DNA of 34,598 nt from a virus. Both the position numbers and the translations under genes were made by a program. The notes under the pieces are model-generated. The model was not told the DNA's origin. It did no database searches and saw nothing but the letters and a program-made list of their open reading frames with translations. Below are positions 22,518-32,332 of this stretch, one piece after another. The first letter of the stretch is position 1. Each line of letters starts with the position of its first letter. Location of the stretch: positions 1-34,598 of the IMG/VR virus record IMGVR_UViG_3300033153_010753; one strand, 5' to 3'.

Positions 22518-22684
22518 GTATTTATAGTTGAAAGTCATTGCTTAATAATTTCTATTAAGTTAGGTCTGAGTAAATCAGGAATGGTTTTTGAATTTTATCG
22601 CCAGACAGTGGTTATGTAAAATTTGAGACTTGACTAAATTAAATTTGGTAGTTGCACCGTGTAATGCGGTGCAATTATTTTTTT
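22518..22684 (+). ncRNA. Candidate small RNA: GTATTTATA motif to strong terminator
   Basis: A perfect GTATTTATA motif (22518-22526) is followed by about 125 nt without a convincing gene and then by a textbook terminator (22652-22680). The only frame is 12 codons (ATG about 22599 after a weak AGGA). The unit looks like a short terminated transcript. No known RNA family is recognised. Confidence 0.4.
22652..22684 (+). terminator. Intrinsic terminator
   Basis: TTGCACCG/CGGTGCAA stem, 7-nt loop, then TTATTTTTTT. Confidence 0.85.
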
Positions 22685-22692
22685 CACATATT

Positions 22693-22756
22693 TTGTAACA
22701 TTTTTATGATTTTTTTCGTATAATGTTTGTATTTATGATTTTAATGCGTATATTTG
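22693..22756 (+). promoter_or_regulatory. Stacked promoters heading tRNA array A
   Basis: Three signals overlap: TTGTAA (22693) to TATAAT (22719-22724); a GTATTTATG motif (22729-22737); and a Bacteroidetes-type promoter TTTG (22726-22729)-N19-TATATTTG (22749-22756). The last matches the -33/-7 consensus of Bacteroidetes primary sigma. The same stack occurs at 27891. Confidence 0.75.
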
Positions 22757-22784: not shown

Positions 22785-22859
22785 ATGAAAAATTTATTGA
22801 ACATACAACCCCAACCGCAACAACATCCACAGGATGGTGAATGGGGAAGTTCTGCTTAA
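22785..22859 (+). CDS. 24-aa leader-like mini-ORF before array A
   Basis: ATG 22785 gives 24 codons: MKNLLNI, then a Gln/Pro/His-rich stretch (QPQPQQHP) and a DGEWGSSA ending. It starts about 20 nt after the expected transcription start and ends about 30 nt before a terminator hairpin. A sister cassette at 27977 encodes another MKN(L/V)(L/M)NI peptide. The layout resembles attenuator leader peptides, though a small functional peptide is possible. Confidence 0.5.
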   Translation: MKNLLNIQPQPQQHPQDGEWGSSA

Positions 22860-22890
22860 TTTTTCAAAGAGAAGTTTTAGGTTAAACATG

Positions 22891-22920
22891 AACCCCATTC
22901 GCAAGAGTGGGGTTTTTTTA
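22891..22920 (+). terminator. Intrinsic terminator after mini-ORF
   Basis: AACCCCATTC/GAGTGGGGTT stem with GCAA tetraloop and a run of seven T. It lies between the array A promoter and the tRNAs. Confidence 0.85.
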
Positions 22921-22995
22921 TTGTTATAAGTGAATATAACTAAGGGGCATTAAAGGGGCATAACGGGCAATTATTAATATAAGTAAATATAAATC

Positions 22996-23130: not shown

Positions 23131-23206
23131 CGGGATATAGTACAGTTGGTAGTATGCGTGCTTTGGGAGCACGAGGTCGCAGGTTCGAGTCCTGCTATCC
23201 CGACCA
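23131..23206 (+). tRNA. tRNA-Pro(UGG)
   Basis: Canonical cloverleaf: acceptor CGGGATA/TATCCCG, anticodon arm CGTGC-TTTGGGA-GCACG, T-arm GCAGG-TTCGAGT-CCTGC, A73, encoded CCA. Confidence 0.93.
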
Positions 23207-23207
23207 A

Positions 23208-23303
23208 CGGGTGTTGAGCGAGTTTGGTTTAAGCTGCTGGTCTTGGAAGCCAGTGAGGGCACAAAGGCGTTGTCCTCCGTGAGTTCGAATCTCACACACC
23301 CGA
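23208..23303 (+). tRNA. Class-II tRNA with UGG anticodon (isotype uncertain)
   Basis: Acceptor CGGGTGT/ACACCCG, D-stem AGC/GCT, anticodon arm CTGGT-CTTGGAA-GCCAG, long variable arm GAGGGCA/TGTCCTC, T-arm GTGAG-TTCGAAT-CTCAC, A73, no CCA. The variable arm marks Ser/Leu-type bodies, but the anticodon by position is UGG (Pro). One base change would give UGA (Ser). Confidence 0.75.
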
Positions 23304-23312
23304 CTAAGTAAT

Positions 23313-23443
23313 GGTGGACGTAATATTGTACGTAAGTAGACTGATGAATCCAAGAGGGAACGCTTGGTGAAAAATGAGAAAAGCGTATGGCAACAACGTC
23401 ACTCCCGATGAGGGGAGAAATTGCAGTGAAAATCCTGTCCATT
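23313..23443 (+). ncRNA. Structured spacer RNA S1
   Basis: Closed by GGTGGAC/GTCCATT (7 bp with two G-U). Internal hairpins: ACGT/ACGT, CCAAG/CTTGG and CTCCC-GATGA-GGGAG. It lacks a TTCRA T-loop, so it is not an ordinary tRNA. Unrecognised family. Confidence 0.4.
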
Positions 23444-23454
23444 ATTTTTAATAT

Positions 23455-23531
23455 GGTGATTGTAGCTCAATTGGTAGAGCACCTGATTGTGGTTCAGGCG
23501 GTTGCGGGTTCAAGTCCCGTCTTTCACCCCA
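23455..23531 (+). tRNA. tRNA-His(GUG), copy 1
   Basis: Anticodon arm CCTGA-TTGTGGT-TCAGG, T-arm GCGGG-TTCAAGT-CCCGT, G-1 opposite C73 as expected for His, CCA encoded. The acceptor stem has two T-T mismatches. Confidence 0.88.
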
Positions 23532-23532
23532 A

Positions 23533-23605
23533 CGAGTAGTAGCGAAGTTGGTATCGTGCCACATTTGGGATGTGGAGACCGCAGGTTCGAGTCCTGCCTA
23601 CTCGA
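23533..23605 (+). tRNA. tRNA-Pro(UGG), second canonical copy
   Basis: Acceptor CGAGTAG/CTACTCG, anticodon arm CCACA-TTTGGGA-TGTGG, T-arm GCAGG-TTCGAGT-CCTGC, A73, no CCA. Confidence 0.92.
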
Positions 23606-23607
23606 CT

Positions 23608-23683
23608 GTGTTAGTTGCAGATGTTGGTAGTCTGCACGTGACTGTGAATCACGGATACGGGGGTTCGATTCCCCTCTAACACC
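23608..23683 (+). tRNA. tRNA-His(GUG), copy 2
   Basis: Acceptor GTGTTAG/CTAACAC, anticodon arm CGTGA-CTGTGAA-TCACG, C73. The base before G1 is T, not the usual G-1. Confidence 0.88.
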
Positions 23684-23686
23684 CAA

Positions 23687-23738
23687 AATGATAATTTAGA
23701 TTATCATGTTAAAATAAAGTGATGGTTTAGATTATCAT
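23687..23738. repeat. Hairpin direct repeat between His and Gln tRNAs
   Basis: ATGATAAT-TTAG-ATTATCAT (perfect 8-bp hairpin) is followed by a second, slightly decayed copy TGATGGTTTAGATTATCAT. Possible processing signal. Confidence 0.5.
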
Positions 23739-23742
23739 ATAT

Positions 23743-23815
23743 TGTCTCGTAGTGTAATTGGCAACACAACTCCCTCTGAAGGAGAAGAGTGCAGGTTCAA
23801 ATCCTGCCGAGACAA
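23743..23815 (+). tRNA. tRNA-Gln(CUG)
   Basis: Acceptor TGTCTCG/CGAGACA, anticodon loop CTCTGAA (CUG) on a CTCC/GGAG stem, T-arm GCAGG-TTCAAAT-CCTGC, A73. Confidence 0.88.
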
Positions 23816-23821
23816 CGAGTA

Positions 23822-23858
23822 TCCGCTAAATGAGTGGTTATTTAATGTAATTAGCGGA
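23822..23858 (+). repeat. Inverted repeat in array A spacer
   Basis: TCCGCTAA and TTAGCGGA form a perfect 8-bp stem around a 21-nt loop between tRNA-Gln(CUG) and the tRNA-like gene at 23897. Confidence 0.5.
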
Positions 23859-23896
23859 ATGCTGTGTTTATATCAGGTTTCCGCAGAATATAATAA

Positions 23897-23981
23897 GGTG
23901 GGGTAGCTTAAAGAAAAGCGATTGGTGCAACGAAGCCAATAGTTTTGGGTATAATGGCGCAATGTAATCCCAATCCCGCCC
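23897..23981 (+). tRNA. Aberrant tRNA-like gene, possible Cys(GCA), 10-nt anticodon loop
   Basis: Acceptor GGTGGGG/TCCCGCC (7 bp with wobbles), D-stem GCT/AGC, anticodon stem ATTGG/CCAAT with a 10-nt loop TGCAACGAAG in which U33 would precede GCA. The T-stem TTGGG/CCCAA carries a 19-nt loop instead of 7 and has no TTCRA. Hand fold; function unclear. Confidence 0.4.
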
Positions 23982-23985
23982 ACAT

Positions 23986-24066
23986 TGACCTCTGGCAGAA
24001 TGGCTAATGCATCGCCCTTTGAAGGCGACACCGAAAGGTTTAAGGGTTCGAATCCCTTGGGGTCAT
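23986..24066 (+). tRNA. tRNA-Gln(UUG) with hairpin variable loop
   Basis: Acceptor TGACCTC/GGGGTCA, anticodon arm TCGCC-CTTTGAA-GGCGA, T-arm AAGGG-TTCGAAT-CCCTT. The variable region is 13 nt and forms ACC-GAAA-GGT, unusual for Gln. Confidence 0.85.
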
Positions 24067-24073
24067 CTAAAAT

Positions 24074-24161
24074 GATGGTGTAGCTCAATTTAGAAGTGTA
24101 CACTTTAGAGTGCTGCCGTTGGAGGCAGTGGATGTAGGTGAGAACCCTACCACCATCACCA
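24074..24161 (+). tRNA. Aberrant tRNA, UGG-like 6-nt anticodon loop, D-loop hairpin insertion
   Basis: Perfect acceptor GATGGTG/CACCATC, A73, CCA encoded. The D-loop contains the palindrome AAGTGTACACTT, an insertion relative to a normal CAATTGGTAGAG loop. Anticodon stem CTGCC/GGCAG with a 6-nt loop GTTGGA (U33, UGG, A37, no 38). T-loop TGAGAAC instead of TTCRANY. Confidence 0.65.
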
Positions 24162-24162
24162 T

Positions 24163-24235
24163 TGACCTCTGGTGTAATTGGTAACACATCTGATTTTGGT
24201 TCAGAAGAGTGCAAGTTCGAGCCTTGCGGGGTCAA
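24163..24235 (+). tRNA. tRNA-Gln(UUG), canonical copy
   Basis: Acceptor TGACCTC/GGGGTCA, identical to the copy at 23986; anticodon arm TCTGA-TTTTGGT-TCAGA; T-arm GCAAG-TTCGAGC-CTTGC; A73. Confidence 0.92.
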
Positions 24236-24239
24236 CTTT

Positions 24240-24270
24240 TTGTAACAAATCCCACTTATTTTCGTATATA
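24240..24270 (+). promoter_or_regulatory. TTGTAACA...TTTTCGTATATA promoter
   Basis: TTGTAA (24240-24245), 19 nt, TATATA (24265-24270). The first ATG of the operon is only 7 nt after the second box, so the transcript would be nearly leaderless. Confidence 0.6.
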
Positions 24271-24276
24271 TAATAA

Positions 24277-24513
24277 ATGAATGAACAAGAAAAAATAGAG
24301 AAACTTGAAAAACAGGTTGATGACCTAACAACCCGACTCATTGATTTGACTTTTGAAATGAATTATAATAAAGAAACAGAATTACTTGAATTTGTTCGAG
24401 AATTATTTGTATCTTTACAGAATGTGGGTGAGAAACTCAGTAAAGAAGAAATTATTGAGAATCTTAAAAATTATATTCAGGTATTTGCTAAAGATAATAA
24501 CTTACAATTATGA
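24277..24513 (+). CDS. Small coiled-coil protein (78 aa)
   Basis: Begins MNEQEKIEKLEKQVDDLTTR, with heptad-like Leu/Val spacing over residues 5-30, then amphipathic helices. Soluble and acidic. First gene of a four-gene operon with overlapping reading frames; its stop overlaps the next ATG (ATGA at 24510). No known family. The operon's last gene is a cREC-like protein, so these may be partners. Confidence 0.65.
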   Translation: MNEQEKIEKLEKQVDDLTTRLIDLTFEMNYNKETELLEFVRELFVSLQNVGEKLSKEEIIENLKNYIQVFAKDNNLQL

Positions 24514-24761
24514 ACGCAGAAGAACTATTGATTTATTTAAAAGATTGTATTAAGAAATTGGATGAATCTTCAGATGGTTTAGAATTCGAACCAATCATAA
24601 CACCAACCATGTATGACCCAAAAGAAATACAGAATGATGTAACGATGATTATAATGGAACAGGTTGGAGACGATACCATCCCAAAATTCAGGGTCGATGT
24701 TAAAGACTTAGAAGCGATAAGAAATCGAAAGAAATGGATAAAAATGAAAGGTGATGAGTAA
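24510..24761 (+). CDS. Small soluble protein of unknown function (83 aa)
   Basis: Begins MNAEELLIYLKDCIKKLDES; helical N-terminus, then a beta-like region with MIIMEQVGDD and a basic end RNRKKWIKMKGDE. The ATGA overlap with the 78-aa gene and the overlap with the next small gene (ATG 24754) indicate translational coupling. Not recognised; its size and sequence would suit a small virion-assembly or regulatory protein. Confidence 0.65.
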   Translation: MNAEELLIYLKDCIKKLDESSDGLEFEPIITPTMYDPKEIQNDVTMIIMEQVGDDTIPKFRVDVKDLEAIRNRKKWIKMKGDE

Positions 24762-24906
24762 ACTAAGAGTAGGACATAAAGAGAATTCAGCAATCAATGG
24801 AGAGTATGCTGGTCATGTAAGAGGCTGGCTCAAAAGATTCACATCCAAGAAACGCAGGAGACTTGGTAAAGAAGATATTAATAAACGACAAAGTAATGAG
24901 TTATAA
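24754..24906 (+). CDS. Small basic protein (50 aa)
   Basis: MSKLRVGHKENSAINGEYAG, then an Arg/Lys-rich segment (WLKRFTSKKRRRLGKED). It overlaps both neighbours: it starts 8 nt inside the end of the 83-aa gene and runs 11 nt into the cREC-like gene. The strongly basic composition suits nucleic-acid binding. Too short for most ORF cut-offs, but nested tightly enough in the operon to be credible. Confidence 0.55.
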   Translation: MSKLRVGHKENSAINGEYAGHVRGWLKRFTSKKRRRLGKEDINKRQSNEL

Positions 24907-25318
24907 TTTATTCCTTGATGATATTAGAAGACCAGAAGATGCGTTCAATTATATGCACTTACCAGTTTTTAATTTAGCTGATTGGATTATTGTGCGTAAT
25001 TATTACGCATTCATCACACTCATTGAAAAAAAAGGCATGCCAGAAATAATTGCTTTCGACCATGACCTTGCTGATGAACATTATAAACAACAGGACTTCG
25101 ACTACGAAAGAGAAGATTACGAGAAAACTGGATATCACTGTGCTAAATGGCTTATTGATTATTGTATGGATAATAATGAAGAACTCCCAAAGGAAATCAT
25201 TATACATTCAATGAATCCATATGGAAGTCGTAATATCAAGTCATTGTTTGATACTTATATTAAAGTTTATGACCTCGAACACTCAGCAATTAAAATTCTT
25301 GCAAGTCACATGAGATAA
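24896..25318 (+). CDS. cREC-like receiver-domain protein (predicted cyclic-phosphate processing)
   Basis: 140 aa from ATG 24896; a TTG at 24863 would extend it, but the ATG overlaps the upstream stop. Family-like motifs: LFLDDIRRPED (residues 5-15, acidic pair 8-9), IIAFDHDLAD (51-60), EKTGYHCAKWLIDYC (76-90) and IIIHSMNPYGSRNI (101-114). These match a receiver-like fold described by comparative genomics as cREC (cyclic-phosphate processing receiver), often in phages and predicted to act on cyclic phosphate ends in RNA or nucleotide repair. That function is a prediction of the family, not shown here. It lies directly after tRNA array A; repair of cleaved tRNA, which carries 2',3'-cyclic phosphate ends, is a reasonable hypothesis. 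Its stop abuts the convergent secreted-protein gene. Confidence 0.75.
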   Translation: MSYNLFLDDIRRPEDAFNYMHLPVFNLADWIIVRNYYAFITLIEKKGMPEIIAFDHDLADEHYKQQDFDYEREDYEKTGYHCAKWLIDYCMDNNEELPKEIIIHSMNPYGSRNIKSLFDTYIKVYDLEHSAIKILASHMR

Positions 25319-26290
25319 TTATCTTCTACCACCAGAACTCCTGCTGCTACTCCCACTACTACTCCTGCTCCCAGAACTCCTACTTGAAGATGACCGTGAA
25401 GGTGTACTGTAGCTACGTGAACTACTTGAACGTGAAGGAGTACTATAACTTCTTGACGGTGCTCTTGACGGTGCTCTTGACGGAGCATTATAACTTCTTT
25501 GTCTGGTGCTTGAAGAAGGTCTTGTATAATTACTTCTTTGCTGCTGCCTTTGTGGTTGTACTGCTTGTGAGCGTGTTGTAGTTCTGCTTCTCGTTACTTT
25601 TGAGTTATTATAAGGAGCACGACTACGTGAAGTTGGTTTATTATAACGAGGACTATATGCTTTTCTCTCACTATTAGTGCGAGAATTAATAACACGTGTA
25701 CTTTGACGAACAGGTATTTGTCTTGTTATTACAGATTTTGTTGTGCGAGTTTTTGGTGTGATACCTGACGTTCTTGGACTACCAACATTTTGGGTACTAT
25801 ATGAACGGTAATAATTCCTATTATGACCCAATGCATTTGAAGTAGCATATCTCTGACCACGTGGTCTTGAATAATATCCGTAATTATAATAGTTGTTGTG
25901 CCCGTAGTACGGATAATAATTGTAGCCATAGTAAGGGTAATATGCTCCATAATATGCGTAGTAATTATAATACCAAGGATTCCAATAAGAAGAGTAATAA
26001 CCATAATATGGCTGGTTATAATGTGGGTATATGTAGCCAAAAGTCAATCTAAATCGATAATTTGGCTGGTTATAATCATTGTAGTAGTTATTAATTACCA
26101 ATGGGTCATAGTCGGCATCGACATAGACGGTATCATAGACGGTCACAGTATCTTGTTTTACTGTGTTATCGCTATAAAGTTCATTTTCCTTTTCAATGCG
26201 ATACTTTTCGTAATCGCTGAGTTCTCGTTCTTGTGCAATTAAGACAAACGAGAAGAGTGTGAGTAATAGTGTTATGAATATTTTTTTCAT
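25319..26290 (-). CDS. Secreted Tyr-rich/Arg-Ser-rich protein
   Basis: 323 aa. A classic signal peptide (MKKIFITLLLTLFSFVLIAQ, cleavage after AQ) is followed by an acidic segment with DTVTVYDTVYVDADYD, a Tyr/Asn/Pro/Gly-rich region (about residues 75-150) and a C-terminal region of Arg/Ser/Thr repeats (SRAPSRAPSRSYSTPSRSSS-like). Such low-complexity exported proteins are typical of Bacteroidetes genomes, and this one may be a host-derived cargo gene. It lacks a lipobox Cys. Function unknown; it could be a surface-modifying protein made during infection. A divergent AT-rich motif region separates it from the 502-aa gene. Confidence 0.75.
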   Translation of the reverse strand: MKKIFITLLLTLFSFVLIAQERELSDYEKYRIEKENELYSDNTVKQDTVTVYDTVYVDADYDPLVINNYYNDYNQPNYRFRLTFGYIYPHYNQPYYGYYSSYWNPWYYNYYAYYGAYYPYYGYNYYPYYGHNNYYNYGYYSRPRGQRYATSNALGHNRNYYRSYSTQNVGSPRTSGITPKTRTTKSVITRQIPVRQSTRVINSRTNSERKAYSPRYNKPTSRSRAPYNNSKVTRSRTTTRSQAVQPQRQQQRSNYTRPSSSTRQRSYNAPSRAPSRAPSRSYSTPSRSSSSRSYSTPSRSSSSRSSGSRSSSGSSSRSSGGRR

Positions 26291-26347
26291 TATAATGTTT
26301 TTTAATTAAGGGCAATAATAGTGCCAGAAACTTTCTCTGACTCCTAA

Positions 26348-26356
26348 CTATTTATA
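26348..26356 (+). promoter_or_regulatory. CTATTTATA motif in divergent region
   Basis: Sense for the 502-aa gene (ATG 26372). The opposite strand of the overlapping bases reads ATATTTATTATA toward the secreted-protein gene. Confidence 0.45.
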
Positions 26357-26371
26357 ATAAATATTCTTTTT

Positions 26372-27880
26372 ATGAAACAAGATAGTAAGAAAAGACTTCT
26401 CGAAGTCATGACAAGACTCGATAAGAATTTCAAACCCCAATTAAATGAAGAATTCGGTGCTGACACTAATGACCCAACAAAAGAAGAAATGGTTGGTTTC
26501 TTAACTAACGAATTTCAGAGCATGGATTCAGAAAACATAGATTTCGATGTTGCAGCAGCAATATATTGGTTTGGTAACGATTATCATGGTGGACAAAACA
26601 GTAACCTATATTCGGCATTGAGTACTTCGGAGTTCAGACCCGGTCCAATGCACAAAGGTATTGAAGACGAAGAAAGCGAAACAGCAACCCTAATGTATCA
26701 AGAACTGGTTAATAAATATGGTGGGGGTGCTCAAGAAGACTCAATTGATGCTGGTAATACTCAGTGGCATGGAATTGAAATGAATGAAGACCCAATAGGT
26801 GAAGTTTTTGGTTGGTCAGGAAAAGAAAAAGAAGCTAAAGCCAATACTGAGACAATTAATAATGCAAAAGCAGAGATAACTAAATATCCACCATCACATA
26901 TATGGGGTCAACCGGGTAGGAACAGTGCACCTGCTGATGACAAGCAATTAATGACTGTTCGCCTTAACATGGCTAAACAACATATGCCGACACTTGCAGA
27001 ATTAATGCCACAACTATTTGATTTAACTCAAGGTTATGGTGACATGGTTCAAATATATAATGGAAAACCATTGAAAGGTTTAATTCCTTCAAACTGGTAT
27101 TATTTCCTAAGAGGTGAAGAAGGTTATGTTGATAATGAGCAAGCCGTTCGTAAATTGAATCAAGAAATCGATAATTTAGGTCAGCAAATAGGTCTTCAAG
27201 AAGACGATAAGTGGATTCAGAAAGCCGTTGACCCCGCACATAAAGGTTATTGCACTCCAATGACTAAGGATACTTGTACACCAAGACGTAAGGCACTTGC
27301 TAAACGTTTTAAAGCAGATGACCTTGAAGAAAATATAAGTATTGATGTAAAAGTGGGTGACACTATTATGACAGGCAGATTTAAAAATTCGCCAACACTG
27401 GTAAAGTCAATAGGAAAAGATGAACACGGTATGCCAACTATTAACGGTAAGAAAGTAGTAACATTTAAAAAGGGTGTTGCCAAAGACGAAAGTGTGACTG
27501 AAGCAATTGTTGGTGATAATCCTGAAGAATATAGAAGTAAAGTTGAAAAAATCAAGCAAACAATGGATAAGTTGTTCAATGATGAATATTTTGATATTAT
27601 TGACACATTATATAGATTACTGGTTACAAGAGGAAAAGGAGCTGGTCAAATTGGTGCGCTTACAGAAAACGCAGATGCAATTTCTACTGGTCATAACATA
27701 TATAAAGATGTGATGATATTAATTAATCACCAAGCAGGTGATGAAATATGGGGTGGTGGCGCAGAAAGTGCATTGAAATTCTATGAAAATGTATTGGAAG
27801 GACTTCGTGATGCATTATATCAAGATTTAGCTGATAGTGTTAATCCAAATGCTGGTGCTGCACCTGATGAAATACAATAA
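26372..27880 (+). CDS. Putative internal head protein sharing capsid-targeting-like N-terminus (502 aa)
   Basis: The N-terminal 26 residues (charged helix, then RLDKNFKPQLNE) match the 154-aa protein at 18469; the rest differs. Later segments: a helical region (about residues 50-280), a Cys/Thr/Arg-rich stretch KGYCTPMTKDTCTPRRKALA (about 291-310), a beta module VKVGDTIMTGRFKNSPTLVK, then GMPTINGKKVVTF (about 325-365), and a helical C-terminus. I believe similar Cys-Thr-Pro and NGKKV modules recur in large-phage structural proteins, but I cannot name a family. A shared leader with LNE|E suggests prohead targeting and removal by the gp21-like protease. Function after that is unknown. Confidence 0.65.
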   Translation: MKQDSKKRLLEVMTRLDKNFKPQLNEEFGADTNDPTKEEMVGFLTNEFQSMDSENIDFDVAAAIYWFGNDYHGGQNSNLYSALSTSEFRPGPMHKGIEDEESETATLMYQELVNKYGGGAQEDSIDAGNTQWHGIEMNEDPIGEVFGWSGKEKEAKANTETINNAKAEITKYPPSHIWGQPGRNSAPADDKQLMTVRLNMAKQHMPTLAELMPQLFDLTQGYGDMVQIYNGKPLKGLIPSNWYYFLRGEEGYVDNEQAVRKLNQEIDNLGQQIGLQEDDKWIQKAVDPAHKGYCTPMTKDTCTPRRKALAKRFKADDLEENISIDVKVGDTIMTGRFKNSPTLVKSIGKDEHGMPTINGKKVVTFKKGVAKDESVTEAIVGDNPEEYRSKVEKIKQTMDKLFNDEYFDIIDTLYRLLVTRGKGAGQIGALTENADAISTGHNIYKDVMILINHQAGDEIWGGGAESALKFYENVLEGLRDALYQDLADSVNPNAGAAPDEIQ

Positions 27881-27890
27881 TTAAAAATAT

Positions 27891-27953
27891 TTGTAACATT
27901 TTTGAATTTTTTTCGTATAATGATTGTATTTATGAGAAATTGTGCTATCTTTG
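27891..27953 (+). promoter_or_regulatory. Stacked promoters heading tRNA array B
   Basis: TTGTAA (27891) to TATAAT (27916-27921), GTATTTATG (27926-27934), and ATTG (27923)-N19-TATCTTTG (27946-27953). The order and spacing are the same as at 22693. Confidence 0.75.
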
Positions 27954-27976
27954 CACAAGATAAAATTTAGAAAACG

Positions 27977-28084
27977 ATGAAAAACGTGATGAACATATTG
28001 ATGAACTTGGTACTCGTTGCCCTATTATGGGTGGATGATGCGGAAGAGATGCGTTCAGTCGGGTTTGCAGATACTGGTGGTTAA
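27977..28084 (+). CDS. 35-aa leader-like mini-ORF before array B
   Basis: MKNVMNILMNLVLVALLWVD, then DAEEMRSVGFADTGG. The first 19 residues are hydrophobic. It sits between the stacked promoters and a terminator, as the 22785 mini-ORF does, and shares the MKN(L/V)(L/M)NI opening. Leader peptide or small membrane peptide. Confidence 0.5.
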   Translation: MKNVMNILMNLVLVALLWVDDAEEMRSVGFADTGG

Positions 28085-28104
28085 TACCATACCATAAAAA
28101 ATCG

Positions 28105-28136
28105 AAACCCGACTTCCCAAGAGTCGGGTTTTTTTG
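28105..28136 (+). terminator. Intrinsic terminator after mini-ORF
   Basis: AAACCCGACT/AGTCGGGTTT stem, 7-nt loop, T-run. About 40 nt before the first tRNA of array B. Confidence 0.85.
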
Positions 28137-28174
28137 TGTTTAATATTTTTTTGTTCTTTGACGTATTGGAATTT

Positions 28175-28247
28175 GGTGCTGTGGTTCAGTGGTTAGAATA
28201 CCTGCCTGTCACGCAGGGGGTCGTGGGTTCGAATCCCATCAGCACCG
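28175..28247 (+). tRNA. tRNA-Asp(GUC), canonical
   Basis: Acceptor GGTGCTG/CAGCACC, anticodon arm CCTGC-CTGTCAC-GCAGG, T-arm GTGGG-TTCGAAT-CCCAT, G73. Confidence 0.93.
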
Positions 28248-28262
28248 CTTTATTGTATAATA

Positions 28263-28292
28263 GAGAGGATGAATAATTGGGTTCATCCTCTC
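28263..28292 (+). repeat. Perfect 11-bp hairpin in tRNA spacer
   Basis: GAGAGGATGAA pairs with TTCATCCTCTC around TAATTGGG, between the two Asp-type tRNA genes. No T-run follows, so it is more likely a processing element than a terminator. Confidence 0.55.
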
Positions 28293-28298
28293 GCAGAA

Positions 28299-28376
28299 CG
28301 TCTCATGTGCTCGACTGGCGTGCGGGAATTAGACTGTCACTCTTCTAAAACGAGGGTTCGAATCCCTCTGGGACGG
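28299..28376 (+). tRNA. Aberrant Asp(GUC)-like tRNA, 10-nt anticodon loop
   Basis: Acceptor CGTCTCA/TGGGACG, T-arm GAGGG-TTCGAAT-CCCTC, G73. Anticodon stem TTAGA/TCTAA holds a 10-nt loop CTGTCACTCT: the canonical CTGTCAC of the neighbouring tRNA-Asp plus TCT. The D-arm is weak (CTC/GGG). Confidence 0.65.
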
Positions 28377-28382
28377 CAAAAT

Positions 28383-28490
28383 GGTCATAAATAATAAAGT
28401 CTTGCAAAAAGACTTGTCGTGGATTGCACCACGATTTTGGGAACAAGACGTGTGCAAAGCGTTGGGGAGCTTCGAATACTCCTATGACCG
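28383..28490 (+). tRNA. Aberrant Ala(UGC)-like tRNA, 6-nt anticodon loop, enlarged arms
   Basis: Perfect acceptor GGTCATA/TATGACC. The D-region is a 7-bp hairpin AAGTCTT-GCAAA-AAGACTT without GG. Anticodon stem CGTGG/CCACG with loop ATTGCA (U33, UGC, A37). A 30-nt variable region can fold (CAA..CG/CG..TTG). T-arm GGAGC-TTCGAAT-ACTCC has one mismatch; G73. 108 nt in all. Confidence 0.55.
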
Positions 28491-28493
28491 CAA

Positions 28494-28633
28494 AAATGCT
28501 CTGTTGTCGGTCAACACTTAGAGGGTGTTGGGTACGAAGATAAACGTGTTGGTGCAATAAGCACACTTGCCTTAAATAAGCATGAAACTGTGGCATGAAA
28601 AAGCCATCACACGTAACAAGTGACAGAGCATTT
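28494..28633 (+). ncRNA. Structured spacer RNA S6 (11-bp closing stem)
   Basis: AAATGCTCTGT/ACAGAGCATTT close a 140-nt element with hairpins CAACAC/GTGTTG, GTGC-AATAA-GCAC and TGGC/GCCA, giving a cloverleaf-like plan. There is no tRNA T-loop. Unrecognised family. Confidence 0.5.
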
Positions 28634-28641
28634 CCCTTATT

Positions 28642-28768
28642 TTTACCGTTATAGCGGTAAATTTCATGAAAAAGTGTCATAAATGATACTAAAAGCACAA
28701 TATAATGTGTTTTTTACTGCTAAAGCGGTAAATAGTGCCATAAATGATACTAAAAGCACAATATAATG
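28642..28768 (+). repeat. Two tandem hairpin-plus-promoter-like repeat units
   Basis: A hairpin (TTTACCG/CGGTAAA at 28642-28661; TTTACTG/CGGTAAA at 28713-28732) precedes each copy of a 35-nt repeat (28673-28707 and 28734-28768, one difference) ending in CACAATATAATG. The TATAAT suggests duplicated promoters with operator-like hairpins. No protein or RNA gene is visible in 28634-28794. Confidence 0.55.
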
Positions 28769-28794
28769 GTATTTTTATCACAATATCATGATTT

Positions 28795-28812
28795 CGTCTG
28801 GAGAAACCAGAC
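28795..28812 (+). repeat. 18-bp hairpin repeat, left flank of tRNA-Glu
   Basis: GTCTGG-AGAAA-CCAGAC hairpin preceded by C; an identical copy is at 28901-28918. Confidence 0.65.
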
Positions 28813-28818
28813 AAAAAT

Positions 28819-28893
28819 GCTGCCATTGGCAAATTGGTGAAGCCACCAGTCCTTCAAACTGGTCATATGCGAGTTCGAACCTCGCTGGCAGTA
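28819..28893 (+). tRNA. tRNA-Glu(UUC) with C33
   Basis: Acceptor GCTGCCA/TGGCAGT, D-stem GGC/GCC with GG in the loop, anticodon arm CCAGT-CCTTCAA-ACTGG, T-arm GCGAG-TTCGAAC-CTCGC, A73. The universally conserved U33 is C here. Confidence 0.82.
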
Positions 28894-28900
28894 CAAAAAC

Positions 28901-28918
28901 CGTCTGGAGAAACCAGAC
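28901..28918 (+). repeat. 18-bp hairpin repeat, right flank of tRNA-Glu
   Basis: Exact copy of 28795-28812. Confidence 0.65.
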
Positions 28919-28923
28919 GACAT

Positions 28924-28995
28924 GTTCGGGTCTTCTAACGGTTAGGAATCTGGGTTTTCATCCCAGCAATCGGGGTTCGATTCCCCGTCCGAATA
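28924..28995 (+). tRNA. tRNA-Glu(UUC), canonical
   Basis: Acceptor GTTCGGG/TCCGAAT, anticodon arm CTGGG-TTTTCAT-CCCAG, T-arm CGGGG-TTCGATT-CCCCG, A73. Confidence 0.92.
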
Positions 28996-29027
28996 CAAAA
29001 AAGTATAGGATATTTGACAAAAAGCAG

Positions 29028-29035
29028 TATATTTG
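29028..29035 (+). promoter_or_regulatory. Bacteroidetes -7-like TATATTTG before reductase gene
   Basis: TATATTTG 18 nt before ATG 29054. A TTTG is present only 11 nt upstream, not at the usual distance, so the promoter call is tentative. Confidence 0.35.
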
Positions 29036-29053
29036 TATAAAATATTATACATT

Positions 29054-29773
29054 ATGAATGCAGAAAATTATTTAGATGAATATCCCAAAGTATTAGTATT
29101 AGGTGACGGTCTTTTAGGAACAGAAATAATCAATCAAAGTCTATGGCAATACCTTTCGATGGATAAAGATGGAATTGATGTAAATGACTTTTCTAATCTT
29201 GCAGCAATGATTGACGATATCGACCCAAATGTAATTTTAAATTGTATTGGTTATACCGATACATATAGCAAAGAAAGAGAAAATCATTGGAAAATCAATT
29301 ACGAGTTTGTCGTAAATCTTGCAAACTTTTGCGACAGCAGAGACATCAAATTAGTCCATGTATCAACGGATTACCTTTATGCAAATTGCGAGGGGGGGTC
29401 GGCAAAAAAAGAGGATGATGTTCCCGTTCATCAAGAAACTTGGTATAGTTACACAAAATTATTGGCTGATGGTTATGTACAATTATGTGAATACGATTAT
29501 CTTCTAATCAGATGCAGTTTTAAACCCAAACCATTTCCATATGATAAAGCATTTGATAATATTAAGGGAAATTTTGATTATGTTGATGTGATTGCTGGTC
29601 AAATCATTGAATTAATTAACGAAGACCAAAGTGGTATTTGGAATATCGGAACGGCTTTCAAGTCAGTATTTGATTTAGCAAAACAAACCAAACCAGATAT
29701 CGGGATGTGGCATAATAACACACTTCCTACAATCGAAATGGATTTATCTAAATTCAATAACAGAAATAAATAA
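29054..29773 (+). CDS. RmlD-like NAD(P)-dependent reductase (extended SDR)
   Basis: 239 aa from ATG 29054; an upstream start at 29033 lies in the promoter region. The Rossmann loop LVLGDGLLG gives GxGxxG at 17-22; the active-site region VHVSTDYLYA (Ser104-Thr-Asp) and YSYTK (Tyr131, Lys135) match dTDP-4-dehydrorhamnose reductase and related epimerase/reductases, which run shorter C-termini in phages. RmlD makes dTDP-rhamnose for surface polysaccharides. At 239 aa it is shorter than typical RmlD (about 300 aa), with a reduced substrate domain. It is inserted between two tRNA genes, a typical site for a cargo gene. The exact substrate cannot be read from sequence. Confidence 0.75.
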   Translation: MNAENYLDEYPKVLVLGDGLLGTEIINQSLWQYLSMDKDGIDVNDFSNLAAMIDDIDPNVILNCIGYTDTYSKERENHWKINYEFVVNLANFCDSRDIKLVHVSTDYLYANCEGGSAKKEDDVPVHQETWYSYTKLLADGYVQLCEYDYLLIRCSFKPKPFPYDKAFDNIKGNFDYVDVIAGQIIELINEDQSGIWNIGTAFKSVFDLAKQTKPDIGMWHNNTLPTIEMDLSKFNNRNK

Positions 29774-29813
29774 CAAACAAAGGACAGTAAACAGCATTTA
29801 GTGTCCATAATTT

Positions 29814-29899
29814 GCTCCCATAGCTCAGTTGGTCAAGAGCACTTCCCTTACAAGGAAGAGGCGAATAGTATAACGGCAGTTCGAATCTGTCTGGGAGTA
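29814..29899 (+). tRNA. tRNA-Val(UAC) with expanded variable loop
   Basis: Acceptor GCTCCCA/TGGGAGT, anticodon arm CTTCC-CTTACAA-GGAAG, T-arm GGCAG-TTCGAAT-CTGTC, A73. The variable region is 16 nt instead of 5. Confidence 0.85.
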
Positions 29900-29908
29900 C
29901 AAGGACTG

Positions 29909-29983
29909 ATGGATATTTGCCGATATCGGTGAATGAACCGATAAAATACAATTATCGGCAAATAAACCGATAAACATATCCAT
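29909..29983 (+). ncRNA. Structured spacer RNA S8 with switchable stems
   Basis: Closed by ATGGATAT/ATATCCAT. Inside, ATCGGT-GAATGA-ACCGAT and TTATCGG-CAAATAAA-CCGATAA hairpins compete with TTTGCCGAT/ATCGGCAAA, so two folds are mutually exclusive. Confidence 0.45.
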
Positions 29984-30000
29984 TAGTTCAAAGGAATTAC

Positions 30001-30008
30001 TATATTTG
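30001..30008 (+). promoter_or_regulatory. TATATTTG box before 45-aa ORF
   Basis: Bacteroidetes -7-like box 5 nt before ATG 30013; no clear -33 box. Weak. Confidence 0.25.
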
Positions 30009-30012
30009 TTAT

Positions 30013-30150
30013 ATGAATTTTATGATACCATATGAATTGATTAAAATATATAGTGATGAGGGATTTAATTTGATGCAATATTTACCAATAACCTATATTG
30101 GTGAAGGAGAACTTGCTTATCATGACAGATTCAATTATAATTCCTTTTAA
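30013..30150 (+). CDS. Small protein of unknown function (45 aa)
   Basis: MNFMIPYELIKIYSDEGFN, then a hydrophobic/aromatic stretch ending FNYNSF. It lies between the S8 RNA and tRNA-Leu(UAG), its stop 2 nt before that tRNA. Amphipathic, no clear signal peptide. Credible as a small gene because the frame fills the whole gap. Confidence 0.5.
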   Translation: MNFMIPYELIKIYSDEGFNLMQYLPITYIGEGELAYHDRFNYNSF

Positions 30151-30152
30151 TT

Positions 30153-30234
30153 CCTCAAGTGGTGGAATTGGTATACACGCATGTCTTAGGAACATGTGCC
30201 GAAAGGCTTGTGGGTTCGAGTCCCACCTTGAGGA
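30153..30234 (+). tRNA. tRNA-Leu(UAG), class II
   Basis: Acceptor CCTCAAG/CTTGAGG, anticodon arm CATGT-CTTAGGA-ACATG, variable arm TGCC-GAAA-GGC, T-arm GTGGG-TTCGAGT-CCCAC, A73. Confidence 0.93.
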
Positions 30235-30240
30235 CAATAA

Positions 30241-30269
30241 TGTAAGAAGTATAGTCAATATTTCTTACA
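30241..30269 (+). repeat. 29-nt hairpin repeat, copy 1
   Basis: TGTAAGAA/TTCTTACA stem; the near-identical copy is at 31246-31274, each just before a structured RNA or tRNA. Confidence 0.55.
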
Positions 30270-30400
30270 AAAATAGGCTGCGAAACGTCAATAAGGGATG
30301 ATAACTCCCAAGATAGTTTTAAGTTTAACTTAACGCAGTAATAAGTCGCCATACAGTGCGGTGTTAAAGAATAGGCACGATAGCTTGACGCTTCTATTTT
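30270..30400 (+). ncRNA. Structured spacer RNA S7
   Basis: Terminal stems AAAATAG/CTATTTT and CGTCAA/TTGACG, then hairpins GGGA/TCCC and TTAAG/CTTAA and a longer GC arm. 131 nt, no T-loop; unrecognised. Confidence 0.5.
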
Positions 30401-30405
30401 AATTT

Positions 30406-30486
30406 GGGGATGTGGTGGAATGGTATACACGCTGGTTTAAGAAACCAGTGCTGCAAGGCATGCGGGTTCGACTCCCGCCATCCTCA
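30406..30486 (+). tRNA. tRNA-Leu(AAG), class II
   Basis: Acceptor GGGGATG/CATCCTC, anticodon arm CTGGT-TTAAGAA-ACCAG, variable arm TGCTGCAAGGCAT, T-arm GCGGG-TTCGACT-CCCGC, A73. A34 would read CUU, possibly as inosine. Confidence 0.88.
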
Positions 30487-30509
30487 CGGTTTCATCGGAA
30501 GATGATATC

Positions 30510-30589
30510 CAATGCTTGAATAAAATTTTGAGGACAGTGTAATAATTACGTAATAAAATCATGAGACTCAATTAATAAAACAAGCATTG
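30510..30589 (+). ncRNA. Structured spacer RNA S10 (9-bp closing stem)
   Basis: CAATGCTTG/CAAGCATTG close an 80-nt AT-rich element with an inner TTGAG/CTCAA stem and GTAAT/ATTAC hairpin. The 3' edge abuts the next tRNA. Confidence 0.45.
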
Positions 30590-30663
30590 TGCGACATAAC
30601 TCAGAGAAAGAGTGCTCCCGTCAAAGGGAGAAGTCACTGGTTCAAGTCCAGTTGTCGCCACCA
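30590..30663 (+). tRNA. Aberrant tRNA, CAA-like 6-nt anticodon loop
   Basis: Acceptor TGCGACA/TGTCGCC with a 1-72 mismatch, CCA encoded. Minimal D-arm CTC-AGAGAAA-GAG without GG. Anticodon stem CTCCC/GGGAG with a 6-nt loop GTCAAA (U33, CAA, A37). T-arm ACTGG-TTCAAGT-CCAGT. Short variable loop, so not a Leu-type body. Confidence 0.6.
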
Positions 30664-30664
30664 C

Positions 30665-30733
30665 GGGATATGAGAGAAATCTGAATGTCGGAGTCATGAC
30701 CGAAGTAGGTTAGAATCCTACCATATTCCACCA
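30665..30733 (+). tRNA. Aberrant tRNA, CAU-like anticodon, tiny D-arm
   Basis: 8-bp acceptor GGGATATG/CATATTCC, A73, CCA encoded. D-arm reduced to AGA-GAAA-TCT. Anticodon TCGG/CCGA with loop AGTCATGA (or a 6-nt GTCATG closed by an A-A mismatch), giving CAU. T-loop TTAGAAT. Confidence 0.55.
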
Positions 30734-30734
30734 C

Positions 30735-30808
30735 GGGGCAGTAGCTTAGTTGGCTAAAGCATCTGGTTTGCAACCAGAAGACCGAGGGTTCGAGTCCCTT
30801 CTGCTCCA
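30735..30808 (+). tRNA. tRNA-Ala(UGC), canonical copy 1
   Basis: Acceptor GGGGCAG/CTGCTCC, anticodon arm TCTGG-TTTGCAA-CCAGA, T-arm GAGGG-TTCGAGT-CCCTT, A73. Confidence 0.93.
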
Positions 30809-30836
30809 CAAAGTAATTTTATTTAAATTTAAAATA

Positions 30837-31010
30837 ATGAAAGCAAATAGTGGAAATAAAATGTTGAATGAATTGATTGATGACGTAATGAATGAAGAAG
30901 ACATCAAAAATTTCAATGATTATTGTAAAAAATTGGATGAGGCACAAAGAAGAAAACCGTTTATGATTGTCTCAGAAGAATTAGGAAAAGAATTAAACAA
31001 TATAAAGTAA
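30837..31010 (+). CDS. Small acidic protein of unknown function (57 aa)
   Basis: From ATG 30837, after tRNA-Ala. MKANSGNKMLNELIDDVMNE, then DEAQRRKPFMIVSEELGKE, helical and acidic. The stop lies inside the left arm of the S2 RNA's closing stem, so translation could affect S2 folding. No known family. Confidence 0.55.
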   Translation: MKANSGNKMLNELIDDVMNEEDIKNFNDYCKKLDEAQRRKPFMIVSEELGKELNNIK

Positions 31011-31155
31011 TTTGGTAACGTAATCCTATGGAAACTCGTAAGTGCGAACGTGGCACGTAGGCTTATTAAGATGATGGACTGTAGGGTAATTCCCGAACGG
31101 TGAAGATTTTAGTAGCAGACTCGGTACAAAAGGGATTGTTCGACCAAATTACTTT
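31005..31155 (+). ncRNA. Structured spacer RNA S2 (13-bp closing stem)
   Basis: AAAGTAATTTGGT/ACCAAATTACTTT, perfect. Inside: AATCC/GGATT, GTGC-GAACGTG-GCAC, and ACTG-(GGG-TAATT-CCC)-CGGT. 151 nt; unrecognised. The left arm overlaps the end of the 57-aa ORF. Confidence 0.55.
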
Positions 31156-31160
31156 AACAC

Positions 31161-31239
31161 GATGAATTAACATAACTGGCTAATGTTCACAGTAAGTCCT
31201 GCGTGGCATGTAACGGGGGTTCGAGTCCTTCATTCATCA
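31161..31239 (+). tRNA. Aberrant tRNA-like gene, anticodon undetermined
   Basis: Perfect acceptor GATGAAT/ATTCATC, good D-arm ACAT-AACTGGCTA-ATGT, T-arm GGGGG-TTCGAGT-CCTTC, A73. The middle (CACAG-TAAGTC-CTGCGTG) gives only a bulged anticodon stem, so the isotype cannot be read. Confidence 0.5.
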
Positions 31240-31245
31240 CAATTC

Positions 31246-31274
31246 TGTAAGAAATATGGTCAATATTTCTTACA
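31246..31274 (+). repeat. 29-nt hairpin repeat, copy 2
   Basis: TGTAAGAAATAT/ATATTTCTTACA, a 12-bp hairpin; two differences from the copy at 30241. Confidence 0.55.
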
Positions 31275-31278
31275 ACAT

Positions 31279-31355
31279 GGGGCATTAGCTCAGTTGAATA
31301 GAGCACTACATTTGCACTGTAGGGGTCGAGGGTTTGAGTCCCTCATGCTCCACCA
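31279..31355 (+). tRNA. tRNA-Ala(UGC), copy 2
   Basis: Acceptor GGGGCAT/ATGCTCC, anticodon arm CTACA-TTTGCAC-TGTAG, T-loop TTTGAGT, CCA encoded. The D-loop has GA instead of GG. Confidence 0.9.
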
Positions 31356-31389
31356 ATCCATGTAATAAGACAGGTAATTCAATCCTGTG

Positions 31390-31455
31390 GTTGTAGGGTA
31401 GCGTGTTCCCACGTGCGTGTGGAATAAATTGGTAGTCCCAATCACGTCCTACGAC
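31390..31455 (+). ncRNA. Structured spacer RNA S9
   Basis: GTTGTAGG/CCTACGAC closing stem, then CGTG/CACG, with two inner hairpins (one ATTGG/CCAAT). 66 nt, no T-loop. An ACAGG/CCTGT hairpin precedes it. Confidence 0.4.
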
Positions 31456-31465
31456 AGATTGCATT

Positions 31466-31474
31466 GTATTTATA
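31466..31474 (+). promoter_or_regulatory. GTATTTATA motif upstream of membrane-protein gene
   Basis: Perfect motif 12 nt before ATG 31487. Confidence 0.5.
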
Positions 31475-31486
31475 TTAAAATTTAAT

Positions 31487-31957
31487 ATGATATTATCAAC
31501 AATTCTCTTTACCTTAATGGTAACCGTTTTCCTTGCCTATGTAACATTCATATGGTCAAAATACGGTATTCAAAAAAGTATTTCTGAAAGTTATTATGTG
31601 CTGCCGAAGAAATGGAATTGGCTTTTCGTTATGTTCTGCTGGTTATTTGCGTTTCCCGCAATGATTCTTGGTGGTAGTTACTGGATGTTATTTGCTGCTG
31701 GTGGTATTGTTTTTGTGGGTGCAGCAGCAGCCATGCACACGTTTCCTACCAGAGCAGTTCACCTTGCAGGTGCGATTGGTGGTATGATTCTGGGTAGTCT
31801 TGCAATGATATTCCAATATCATATGTGGTATATGGCAGCAGGTGTTGCTGTACTTGCATTACTTTCACTGCTTCTCGATAAAAAACATGTTATGTGGTGG
31901 ACAGAACTTACAATTTTCACAGCAATTAGTATAGTAATCGGAATTTCCTTATTTTAA
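31487..31957 (+). CDS. Multi-spanning membrane protein (156 aa)
   Basis: About six hydrophobic segments: residues 3-23, 45-60, 64-84, 91-109, 113-130 and 138-155, with short loops; a KKWNW motif precedes the second. No signal peptide apart from the first helix and no recognised transporter or holin motif. It is the only protein gene between two blocks of tRNA genes, and it carries a late-type motif, so it may be expressed with the virion genes. Function unknown. Confidence 0.7.
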   Translation: MILSTILFTLMVTVFLAYVTFIWSKYGIQKSISESYYVLPKKWNWLFVMFCWLFAFPAMILGGSYWMLFAAGGIVFVGAAAAMHTFPTRAVHLAGAIGGMILGSLAMIFQYHMWYMAAGVAVLALLSLLLDKKHVMWWTELTIFTAISIVIGISLF

Positions 31958-31981
31958 TGTTGTCTTAAAGGGCAACAATTT

Positions 31982-32055
31982 GCCCTGTTGACGTAATTGG
32001 CAACCGTGTTGGTCTTAAAAGCCAAATTTTCTCAGTTCGAATCTGAGACAGGGCA
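31982..32055 (+). tRNA. Class-I tRNA with UAA (Leu-type) anticodon
   Basis: Acceptor GCCCTGT/ACAGGGC, anticodon arm TTGGT-CTTAAAA-GCCAA, T-arm CTCAG-TTCGAAT-CTGAG, A73. The variable loop is only 5 nt (ATTTT), whereas Leu tRNAs have a long arm. Confidence 0.8.
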
Positions 32056-32166
32056 CTAAAGTTGGTACGAGTGAATCCTAACCAGTGAAGCAAAGCTGAC
32101 TTTGGCGAAATTGATACAAACAGGGTGTGGTGGTTCGCATCAATGTGTTGATAAAGTAACCTAAAT
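32056..32166 (+). ncRNA. Structured-looking spacer S3, no gene seen
   Basis: Contains AAAGT..ACTTT with TGGT/ACCA and AGC/GCT inside, TGGTG-GTTCG-CATCA, and ATCAA-TGTG-TTGAT. No closing stem for the whole and no ORF. Weak candidate. Confidence 0.25.
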
Positions 32167-32239
32167 ACGTCCGTAGTTCAATTGGTAGAATGCTGGTCTC
32201 CAAAACCAGAGATTGGGGGTTCGAGTCCCTCTGGGCGTG
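32167..32239 (+). tRNA. tRNA-Trp(CCA), canonical
   Basis: Acceptor ACGTCCG/TGGGCGT, anticodon arm CTGGT-CTCCAAA-ACCAG, T-arm GGGGG-TTCGAGT-CCCTC, G73. Confidence 0.92.
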
Positions 32240-32244
32240 CAAAT

Positions 32245-32316
32245 GTGTCTGTCATCTAATGGCTAAGATTTCGGCTTCCAAACCCGAAGATGAGGGTTCG
32301 AGTCCTTCCAGACATG
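32245..32316 (+). tRNA. tRNA-Trp(CCA), second copy with mismatched anticodon stem
   Basis: Acceptor GTGTCTG/CAGACAT, D-stem ATC/GAT, anticodon arm TCGGC-TTCCAAA-CCCGA with a 31-39 C-C mismatch, T-arm GAGGG-TTCGAGT-CCTTC, G73. Confidence 0.85.
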
Positions 32317-32332
32317 CAATCATTAATTCTTT

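Follow-up and report, generated by a model that had tools for sequence, protein, structure and literature searches.

Enterobacterial his, trp, leu and thr operons are controlled by attenuators, in which a short leader open reading frame (ORF) with a regulatory codon run and an antiterminator at its end is followed by an intrinsic terminator before the genes. The same arrangement precedes two clusters of tRNA genes in IMGVR_UViG_3300033153_010753 of IMG/VR, an entire 34.6-kb viral record (34,598 nt, hereafter the window) that is part of a large T4-like phage, and some genes of these clusters have an anticodon loop of six nucleotides in place of seven. In contrast to the enterobacterial attenuators, these lie in a phage and the genes they would switch are tRNA genes; a single leader tests as many as eight amino acids together, and the leaders of one genome share out nearly the whole amino acid set among a few operons.

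Phage tRNAs with anticodon-loop mutations have been proposed to escape VapC, PrrC and colicin D/E5 (van den Berg et al. 2023, PMC10264068), and escape from anticodon nucleases through loop substitutions is an existing proposal and a precedent for nuclease-insensitive tRNAs. The genes described there and here are alike in being phage isoacceptors with an altered anticodon loop in large tRNA clusters, but there loop bases are substituted, whereas here the loop is one base shorter, whole arms are remodelled and ordinary copies with the same anticodon stand alongside; that paper makes no mention of insertions, loop size or attenuation. Loop sizes other than seven are cited in PMC5009743 for tRNAs of yeast and sponge mitochondria and of one phage group; the mitochondrial ones described there are enlarged, whereas those studied here are shortened. 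The bacterial RtcR/RtcBA RNA repair operon (PMC7790460) is similar in that tRNA damage induces the remedy, but there an oligonucleotide-binding protein senses and a ligase repairs, while here sensing by the ribosome and supply of new tRNA are proposed. No description of a conserved shortened-loop tRNA family or of attenuated tRNA operons was found with the terms searched in open-access literature, and priority is not established by this.

On balance we favour the reading that the 6-nt genes are conserved tRNAs or tRNA-like RNAs, kept as altered extra copies in attenuator-switched operons that replace depleted tRNAs, with the loop change protecting them against a nuclease. The sequence evidence for it comprises the 6-nt loops themselves, their conservation and covariation, the match between leaders and tRNAs, and the complementarity of terminators and antiterminators. 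According to ARAGORN, the span from 23131 to 32317 contains 22 tRNA genes in two clusters, and the operons and genes concerned are as follows.

23131..24236 (+): tRNA operon 1, with Pro, Pro (class II body), His, Pro, His, Gln, Gln, the 6-nt-loop gene and Gln (ARAGORN, Rfam)
24074..24161 (+): gene A, with a 6-nt anticodon loop (ARAGORN, Rfam, descriptor scan, covariance model, covariation)
28175..32317 (+): tRNA operon 2, probably a single transcript, with Asp, Asp, Glu, Glu, Val, Leu, Leu, Ala, Ala, Leu, Trp, Trp and the unusual genes B, C and D (ARAGORN, Rfam)
28383..28492 (+): tRNA-like gene B, the weakest case (descriptor scan, shuffle P)
30590..30663 (+): gene C, with a 6-nt anticodon loop (ARAGORN, Rfam, descriptor scan, shuffles, homologue in contig L146)
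30665..30733 (+): tRNA-like gene D (descriptor scan, relative in contig L118)

Gene A, of 88 nt, has a perfect 5-bp stem (CTGCC/GGCAG) around the loop GTTGGA (24118-24123), in which the triplet UGG (Pro) is read, a fully paired acceptor stem (7/7) and an encoded ACCA end. ARAGORN assigns it a 2-base anticodon, equivalent to a 6-nt loop, and the Rfam tRNA model (RF00005) scores it at 40.5 bits against a cut-off of 29. When the interior was shuffled with the acceptor and T-arm kept, an equally good 6-nt arm arose in 0.2% of 3000 shuffles (P 0.002). The D-loop carries the hairpin AAGTGTACACTT and the T-loop is TGAGAAC. Ordinary Pro(UGG) copies with 7-nt loops lie beside gene A in the same operon. 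One Pro(UGG) gene there, at 23208-23304, has a class II body with a long variable arm, yet the C1-G72 and A73 of ordinary Pro genes, and is kept throughout the clade.

Six copies in six contigs (the window and the related contigs L001, L124, L134, L168 and L118), each flanked by Gln genes, make up family A. The 6-nt loop and the UGG triplet are found in 6/6 copies, the loops being GTTGGA and ATTGGA (two each), TATGGA and TGTGGT, with U33 present in 4/6. Standard pairs fill 97.3% of pair cells, six pairs are altered on both sides, and the covariation score exceeds all 500 shuffles; when the partners are slid by one column as a control, pairing falls to 39-50%. A covariance model built on four copies scored the two added members at 70-72 bits and ordinary tRNAs at no more than 47 bits. 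In all six copies the D-loop contains a hairpin around GTGTACAC and the T-loop lacks TTC, and most copies have neither the T-loop TTCRANN (TGAGAAY instead) nor the D-loop GG. Taken together, this pattern points to selection acting on the odd tRNA shape. A seventh, diverged copy in L122 does not clearly keep the six loop bases. We also considered that base 32 rather than base 38 might be missing, which would give UUG, AUG or GUG (Gln/His) as the triplet; UGG is the sole invariant triplet, and U33 is more frequent when base 38 is taken as missing. A blastn search of gene A against phage records gave no match, and an IMG/VR pattern search with its anticodon arm, which returned 31 matches including a known relative, was discarded as too short a pattern.

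Gene C presents the loop GTCAAA (30620-30625) on a perfect stem (CTCCC/GGGAG), with the triplet CAA (Leu) and an encoded CCA; it reaches 43.2 bits with RF00005 (same cut-off), and none of 3000 interior shuffles gave an equally good 6-nt arm (0%, P < 1/3000). Its D-arm has a 4-bp stem and a 7-nt loop, and its T-loop fits TTCRANN while the D-loop GG is missing. The homologue at L146:1985-2060 has the loop GTTAGA, that is, another Leu triplet (CAA versus UAG) still within six bases, and its D- and T-arms are ordinary, with both TTCRANN and the D-loop GG; a short loop therefore needs no remodelled body. Further 6-nt loops occur in relatives. In LR756502, a distantly related phage of 642 kb, the loop TTTTCA occurs in two Glu-type genes whose stems differ (GTGTC/GACAC and ATATC/GATAT), and L116 has a Trp-like gene with the loop GTCCAA and G73, the discriminator of the window Trp genes, which is conserved in L136. 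This Trp-type gene can also fold with an 8-nt loop on a 5-bp stem and was counted only as supportive.

Genes B and D are less secure. Gene B has the loop ATTGCA (28423-28428) between CGTGG and CCACG, a 7/7 acceptor stem and a 7-bp D hairpin, and no equally good 6-nt arm appeared in 3000 interior shuffles (0%, P < 1/3000); the Rfam scan gave nothing for it even at E = 1, the arm being found by the tRNA descriptor only, and RNAfold favours a different fold. At the place of gene B in a relative, L001:11806-11976 is a long tRNA-like RNA (GGTTTAT...ATAAACC, G73) with large internal insertions, possibly a divergent counterpart. Gene D, with an 8-bp acceptor, a 3-bp D hairpin, a CAU triplet and an encoded ACCA, can be read in two ways, with a 4-bp stem that leaves eight loop nucleotides or with an A·A mismatch at 31·39 that closes a loop of six. 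The latter reading stays possible because its relative at L118:12293 keeps U33-CAU-G37 and has a G·A mismatch at the same place. Neither gene D nor gene B is listed in the RF00005 scan. In the descriptor scan, genes A, B and C score 49-54, in the remainder of the window no chance fold on either strand reaches 42, and one opposite-strand match inside the tRNA region reaches 46.4. An odd anticodon arm in the Asp gene at 28299 was rejected as a new loop class, since it has a 7-nt loop on a mismatched stem.

The first-pass annotation had assigned a 6-nt loop to genes A, B and C and, if an A-A mismatch closes the stem, to gene D. ARAGORN, Rfam and the descriptor agree with it on genes A and C, the descriptor alone supports gene B, and gene D fits only with the 31·39 mismatch; of the check with an Infernal/Rfam tRNA model that it called for, genes A and C came out above the cut-off and B and D were not reported. 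Its loop plan, N-U-anticodon-A/G with base 38 missing, describes most members, but U33 is lost in 2/6 family A copies. Changed D-arms were seen as it had described them in gene A (hairpin), gene B (7 bp) and gene D (3 bp), but not in gene C, whose D-stem has the 4 bp given above; likewise the good acceptor stems apply to A, B and D and not to C, which has a mismatch at 1·72. CCA is indeed encoded in three genes (A, C and D), and the compensatory stem changes it had asked for in related phages are present in family A with the 6-nt loop kept. Its argument against plain decay is supported, since the 6-nt plan holds for two or more of the four genes and is seen again in relatives. It missed the leader-peptide attenuators, whose elements in the window are listed below.

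22692..22729 (+): promoter-like site upstream of leader 1 (TTTG ... TATAATGTTTG, Bacteroidota-like by sequence likeness)
22785..22859 (+): leader ORF 1, MKNLLNIQPQPQQHPQDGEWGSSA, with conserved counterparts in over 20 clade contigs
22837..22846 (+): antiterminator strand 1 (GTGAATGGGG), inside leader ORF 1 and complementary to the terminator 5′ arm (shuffle P 0.005)
22890..22922 (+): intrinsic terminator 1 (GAACCCCATTC-GCAA-GAGTGGGGTTTTTTT), from sequence and folding
27977..28084 (+): leader ORF 2, MKNVMNILMNLVLVALLWVDDAEEMRSVGFADTGG, from sequence and the permutation test
28057..28066 (+): antiterminator strand 2 (AGTCGGGTTT), inside leader ORF 2 and 10/10 complementary to the terminator 5′ arm (shuffle P 0.005)
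28104..28135 (+): intrinsic terminator 2 (GAAACCCGACTT-CCCAA-GAGTCGGGTTTT), from sequence and folding

Upstream of both tRNA clusters of the window there is thus a promoter-like site, then a short ORF, then a GC hairpin and its T-run; a string similar to the first promoter-like site lies before leader 2 (about 27890-27927) and in L001. Leader ORF 1 has the test codons Q P Q P Q Q H P Q (22806-22832) and precedes Pro, His and Gln tRNAs, and leader ORF 2 has the test run LVLVALLWVDDAEE (28007-28048) and precedes Asp, Glu, Val, Leu, Ala and Trp tRNAs. A short leader ORF with an intrinsic terminator also stands before the tRNA clusters of more than 20 related contigs and of LR756502. Two more leader classes are found in the related contigs, one (MKTFGKSYYGYKSYKKHL...) before Lys/Tyr and the other (MKSQVSNINISSTINSRNGESIFCSSFTGRN...) before Thr/Cys/Ile/Ser/Asn/Phe/Gly/Arg, and the four classes of the clade jointly span all amino acids but Met, whose tRNA genes lie downstream of or within operon 2 in the relatives. 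LR756502 has seven leader-tRNA operons that divide the amino acids differently and follow the same matching rule, among them a poly-Q leader (MTTSFQQQQQQQINRTD) before four Gln genes, MKTMNLNMNLNTLTVVNNTLCIRP... before Asn/Leu/Val/Ile/Thr/Arg, MRTINKHKHFSKLNKWFSNHRF... before Phe/His/Lys and MKTTIKNTSSRSRSSKSG... before Arg/Ser.

The clade leaders are homologous within a class, so that classes, and not contigs, are the independent units. The real assignment of leaders to operons scores highest among all permutations within a genome (1/24 and 1/5040), and there are runs in which 14/14 residues match the downstream tRNAs. Some leaders are weakly enriched when taken singly (LR756502 Glu/Tyr, P 0.11; Pro/Asp, P 0.32), and the strength of the match therefore rests in the set. 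A match of L084 to the leader-2 pattern was judged to be chance (GC-rich DNA without tRNAs), as were weak tblastn matches of leader 1 to Streptococcus phages among phage records, which fall at RusA alone.

An intrinsic terminator is present between each leader and the first tRNA gene. In the 28 leaders tested, a segment past the codon run and near the ORF end can pair with the terminator 5′ arm, with complementarity at shuffle P ≤0.05 in 21/28. The complementary pairs vary by operon class and in some relatives (GAATGGGG/CCCCATTC, AGTCGGGTTT/AAACCCGACT, GAATCGGG/CCCGATTC, TAAGACTGG/CCGGTCTTA, GTGTCGGG/CCCGACAC, CGAGTCTTT/AAAGACTCG), and in L116, where the ORF stops earlier, the antiterminator is still at the ORF end and just beyond. 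When the nascent RNA is folded before the terminator 3′ arm exists and without the 5′ stretch that a stalled ribosome would mask, the antiterminator is predicted, at -15.6 and -20.4 kcal/mol; with the RNA hidden up to the stop codon, it cannot form. In these predicted folds, the antiterminator is placed to be freed by a stalled ribosome and not by a finishing one. As far as sequence and folding can tell, leader, terminator and antiterminator together are the anatomy of ribosome-mediated attenuation that would sense tRNA shortage.

The proposed switch would work in cells as follows. A ribosome would translate the short ORF, rich in codons of the operon's own tRNAs. With the tested tRNAs plentiful, it would reach the stop codon and cover the antiterminator strand, so that the terminator could fold and keep the tRNA genes off; with any tested tRNA scarce, it would stall in the codon run, the ORF end would pair with the terminator 5′ arm and transcription would read through into the tRNA genes, a step we infer from established attenuation of the his/trp type. 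The phage would then make replacement tRNAs for the depleted group. Host anticodon nucleases or decay of host tRNAs are the most plausible causes of depletion. The 6-nt-loop genes, with base 38 absent and mostly of the form N32-U33-anticodon-A37, would be the most altered replacements, presumably charged and active in translation; the loop change, together with changes of the D- and T-arms in some, probably protects them against the nuclease by which the ordinary tRNAs were lost. The altered copies, namely the 6-nt loops, the class II Pro gene at 23208 and the remodelled D- and T-arms, would exist as the nuclease removes them less well. Escape from anticodon nucleases is a plausible reason for the 6-nt genes, and it gains context because they sit in operons that apparently sense tRNA shortage, beside the following gene.

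24863..25318 (+): cREC domain protein (PF20274, cyclic-phosphate processing receiver; Pfam E = 6.9e-22), between the tRNA operons

A syntenic ORF was recognized by eye in L001 and L083. Domains of this type have been proposed to clear or process 2′,3′-cyclic phosphate RNA ends and are linked to RNA ligases (PMC7824862); the position of the gene fits a setting of tRNA damage, as circumstantial evidence.

Several observations weigh against replacement by altered copies. In family A, pair 1-72 differs from the C1-G72 of the ordinary tRNA-Pro genes of the window, which makes proline charging doubtful, and with C1-G72, TΨC and the D-loop GG missing, and U33 too in 2/6 copies, the family may not translate. 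Gene B has G as base 73, no encoded CCA and no homologue found in the relatives. Gene C combines a Leu triplet with a class I body and a U1·C72 mismatch, and single 6-nt cases in L150 (GAA) and L139 (UCA) have triplets outside their operon's set. As to the switch, the antiterminator is weak for the LR756502 poly-Q leader and a few others, and the terminator is favoured in the full-length RNA at equilibrium; the switch must therefore be kinetic, as in known attenuators.

The main rival, which we regard as unlikely but worth serious weight, is that the 6-nt genes are decoys, tRNA look-alikes that would tie up anticodon nucleases of the host, or else modification enzymes or synthetases, and have no part in translation. 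Family A, placed amid ordinary tRNAs of the same group, keeps its triplet and stem and has lost the body features just named, as an anticodon-arm mimic would be expected to; on the other hand, intact acceptor stems and, in several genes, an encoded CCA suggest that the RNAs are processed and tailed like tRNAs, and the bodies of the 6-nt genes of Leu, Glu and Trp type are for the most part ordinary. Still less probable is decay, in which duplicates would drift as the operon holds several copies. It would suit genes B and D, both of ambiguous fold, the former without a homologue and the latter with one, as well as the ordinary tRNA-His that the L083 operon has at the place of gene A. However, in families A and C and the Trp type neither loop length nor triplet class has changed between diverged phages, and in family A the stems show compensatory changes; for A and C decay is already unlikely.

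We consider it improbable that the 6-nt loops form a distinct decoding class, as the first-pass annotation had suggested, that would read two bases or shift frame by -1 for phage genes. ARAGORN does treat them as 2-base anticodons, and almost all tRNAs have standard loops with rare exceptions that include phage tRNAs (Atkins 2016, PMC5009743); natural loop-size exceptions are not known there to shift frames, the triplets are ordinary and mostly of the operon's own amino acids (in genes A, B and C of the window, chance about 0.01), and no frameshifted phage gene was noticed, without a systematic search for any. Hardly credible, finally, is the view that takes the leader ORFs for constitutively expressed upstream genes or for signals in RNA processing, with an amino-acid match that is coincidence or relic; it can draw on the few weak single leaders but conflicts with the permutation ranks, the fully matching runs and the class-specific complementarity to the terminators.

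The window carries genes for a prohead protease, portal, terminase and endolysin, and its lineage appears to be one of giant phages with a bacterial host. The terminase has more than 100 relatives within IMG/VR, and the search against named phage records found just distant T4-like ones. An Rfam scan of the window also gave a partial tmRNA-like match starting at 34451. A low-complexity protein rich in serine/arginine and tyrosine, with a signal-peptide-like start, is encoded at 25319-26290 and adjoins the tRNA operons in relatives too.

Other RNA elements accompany the operons. Upstream of leader 1, an ncRNA-like element at 22520-22690 is conserved, with 28 nhmmer matches in relatives, and has a terminator of its own (TTGCACCGTGTAATGCGGTGCAA-T run). 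A conserved structured RNA of about 140 nt, present in seven phages, lies between Pro and His tRNAs (23308-23455) and has acceptor-like and T-arm-like ends (GGTGAAAATCC); a hammerhead-like motif in this 23316 element was rejected, the CUGAUGA core not being conserved. Another of about 170 nt, present in seven relatives, follows the Asp genes (28490-28665), with a terminal stem (ATGCTCTG/CAGAGCAT) that shows compensatory changes in L083. In operon 2, the tRNA-like gene at 31161-31242 has an ambiguous anticodon arm and an anticodon region (GTAAGTCCTGCGTGGC) conserved in L136 and L118, and the Leu(UAA) tRNA at 31982-32056 is just 75 nt long, that is, of class I body, with a similar gene in L118.

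The reason why phages carry tRNAs has been debated for decades between codon compensation, replacement of degraded host tRNAs and nuclease escape. A leader that reads the codons of its own operon tells what the phage monitors, namely the supply of those tRNAs, and makes the question directly testable. Conserved 6-nt anticodon loops would be a rare natural departure from seven nucleotides and would offer a ready test of what ribosomes and tRNases tolerate. More tentatively, and with somewhat less assurance than we give to the 6-nt genes as protected replacements, giant phages may split a near-whole genetic code into a few leader-tested tRNA regulons, in which loss of any one tRNA would release replacements that include nuclease-proof 6-nt isoacceptors, a ribosome-sensed and autoregulated counter-defence.

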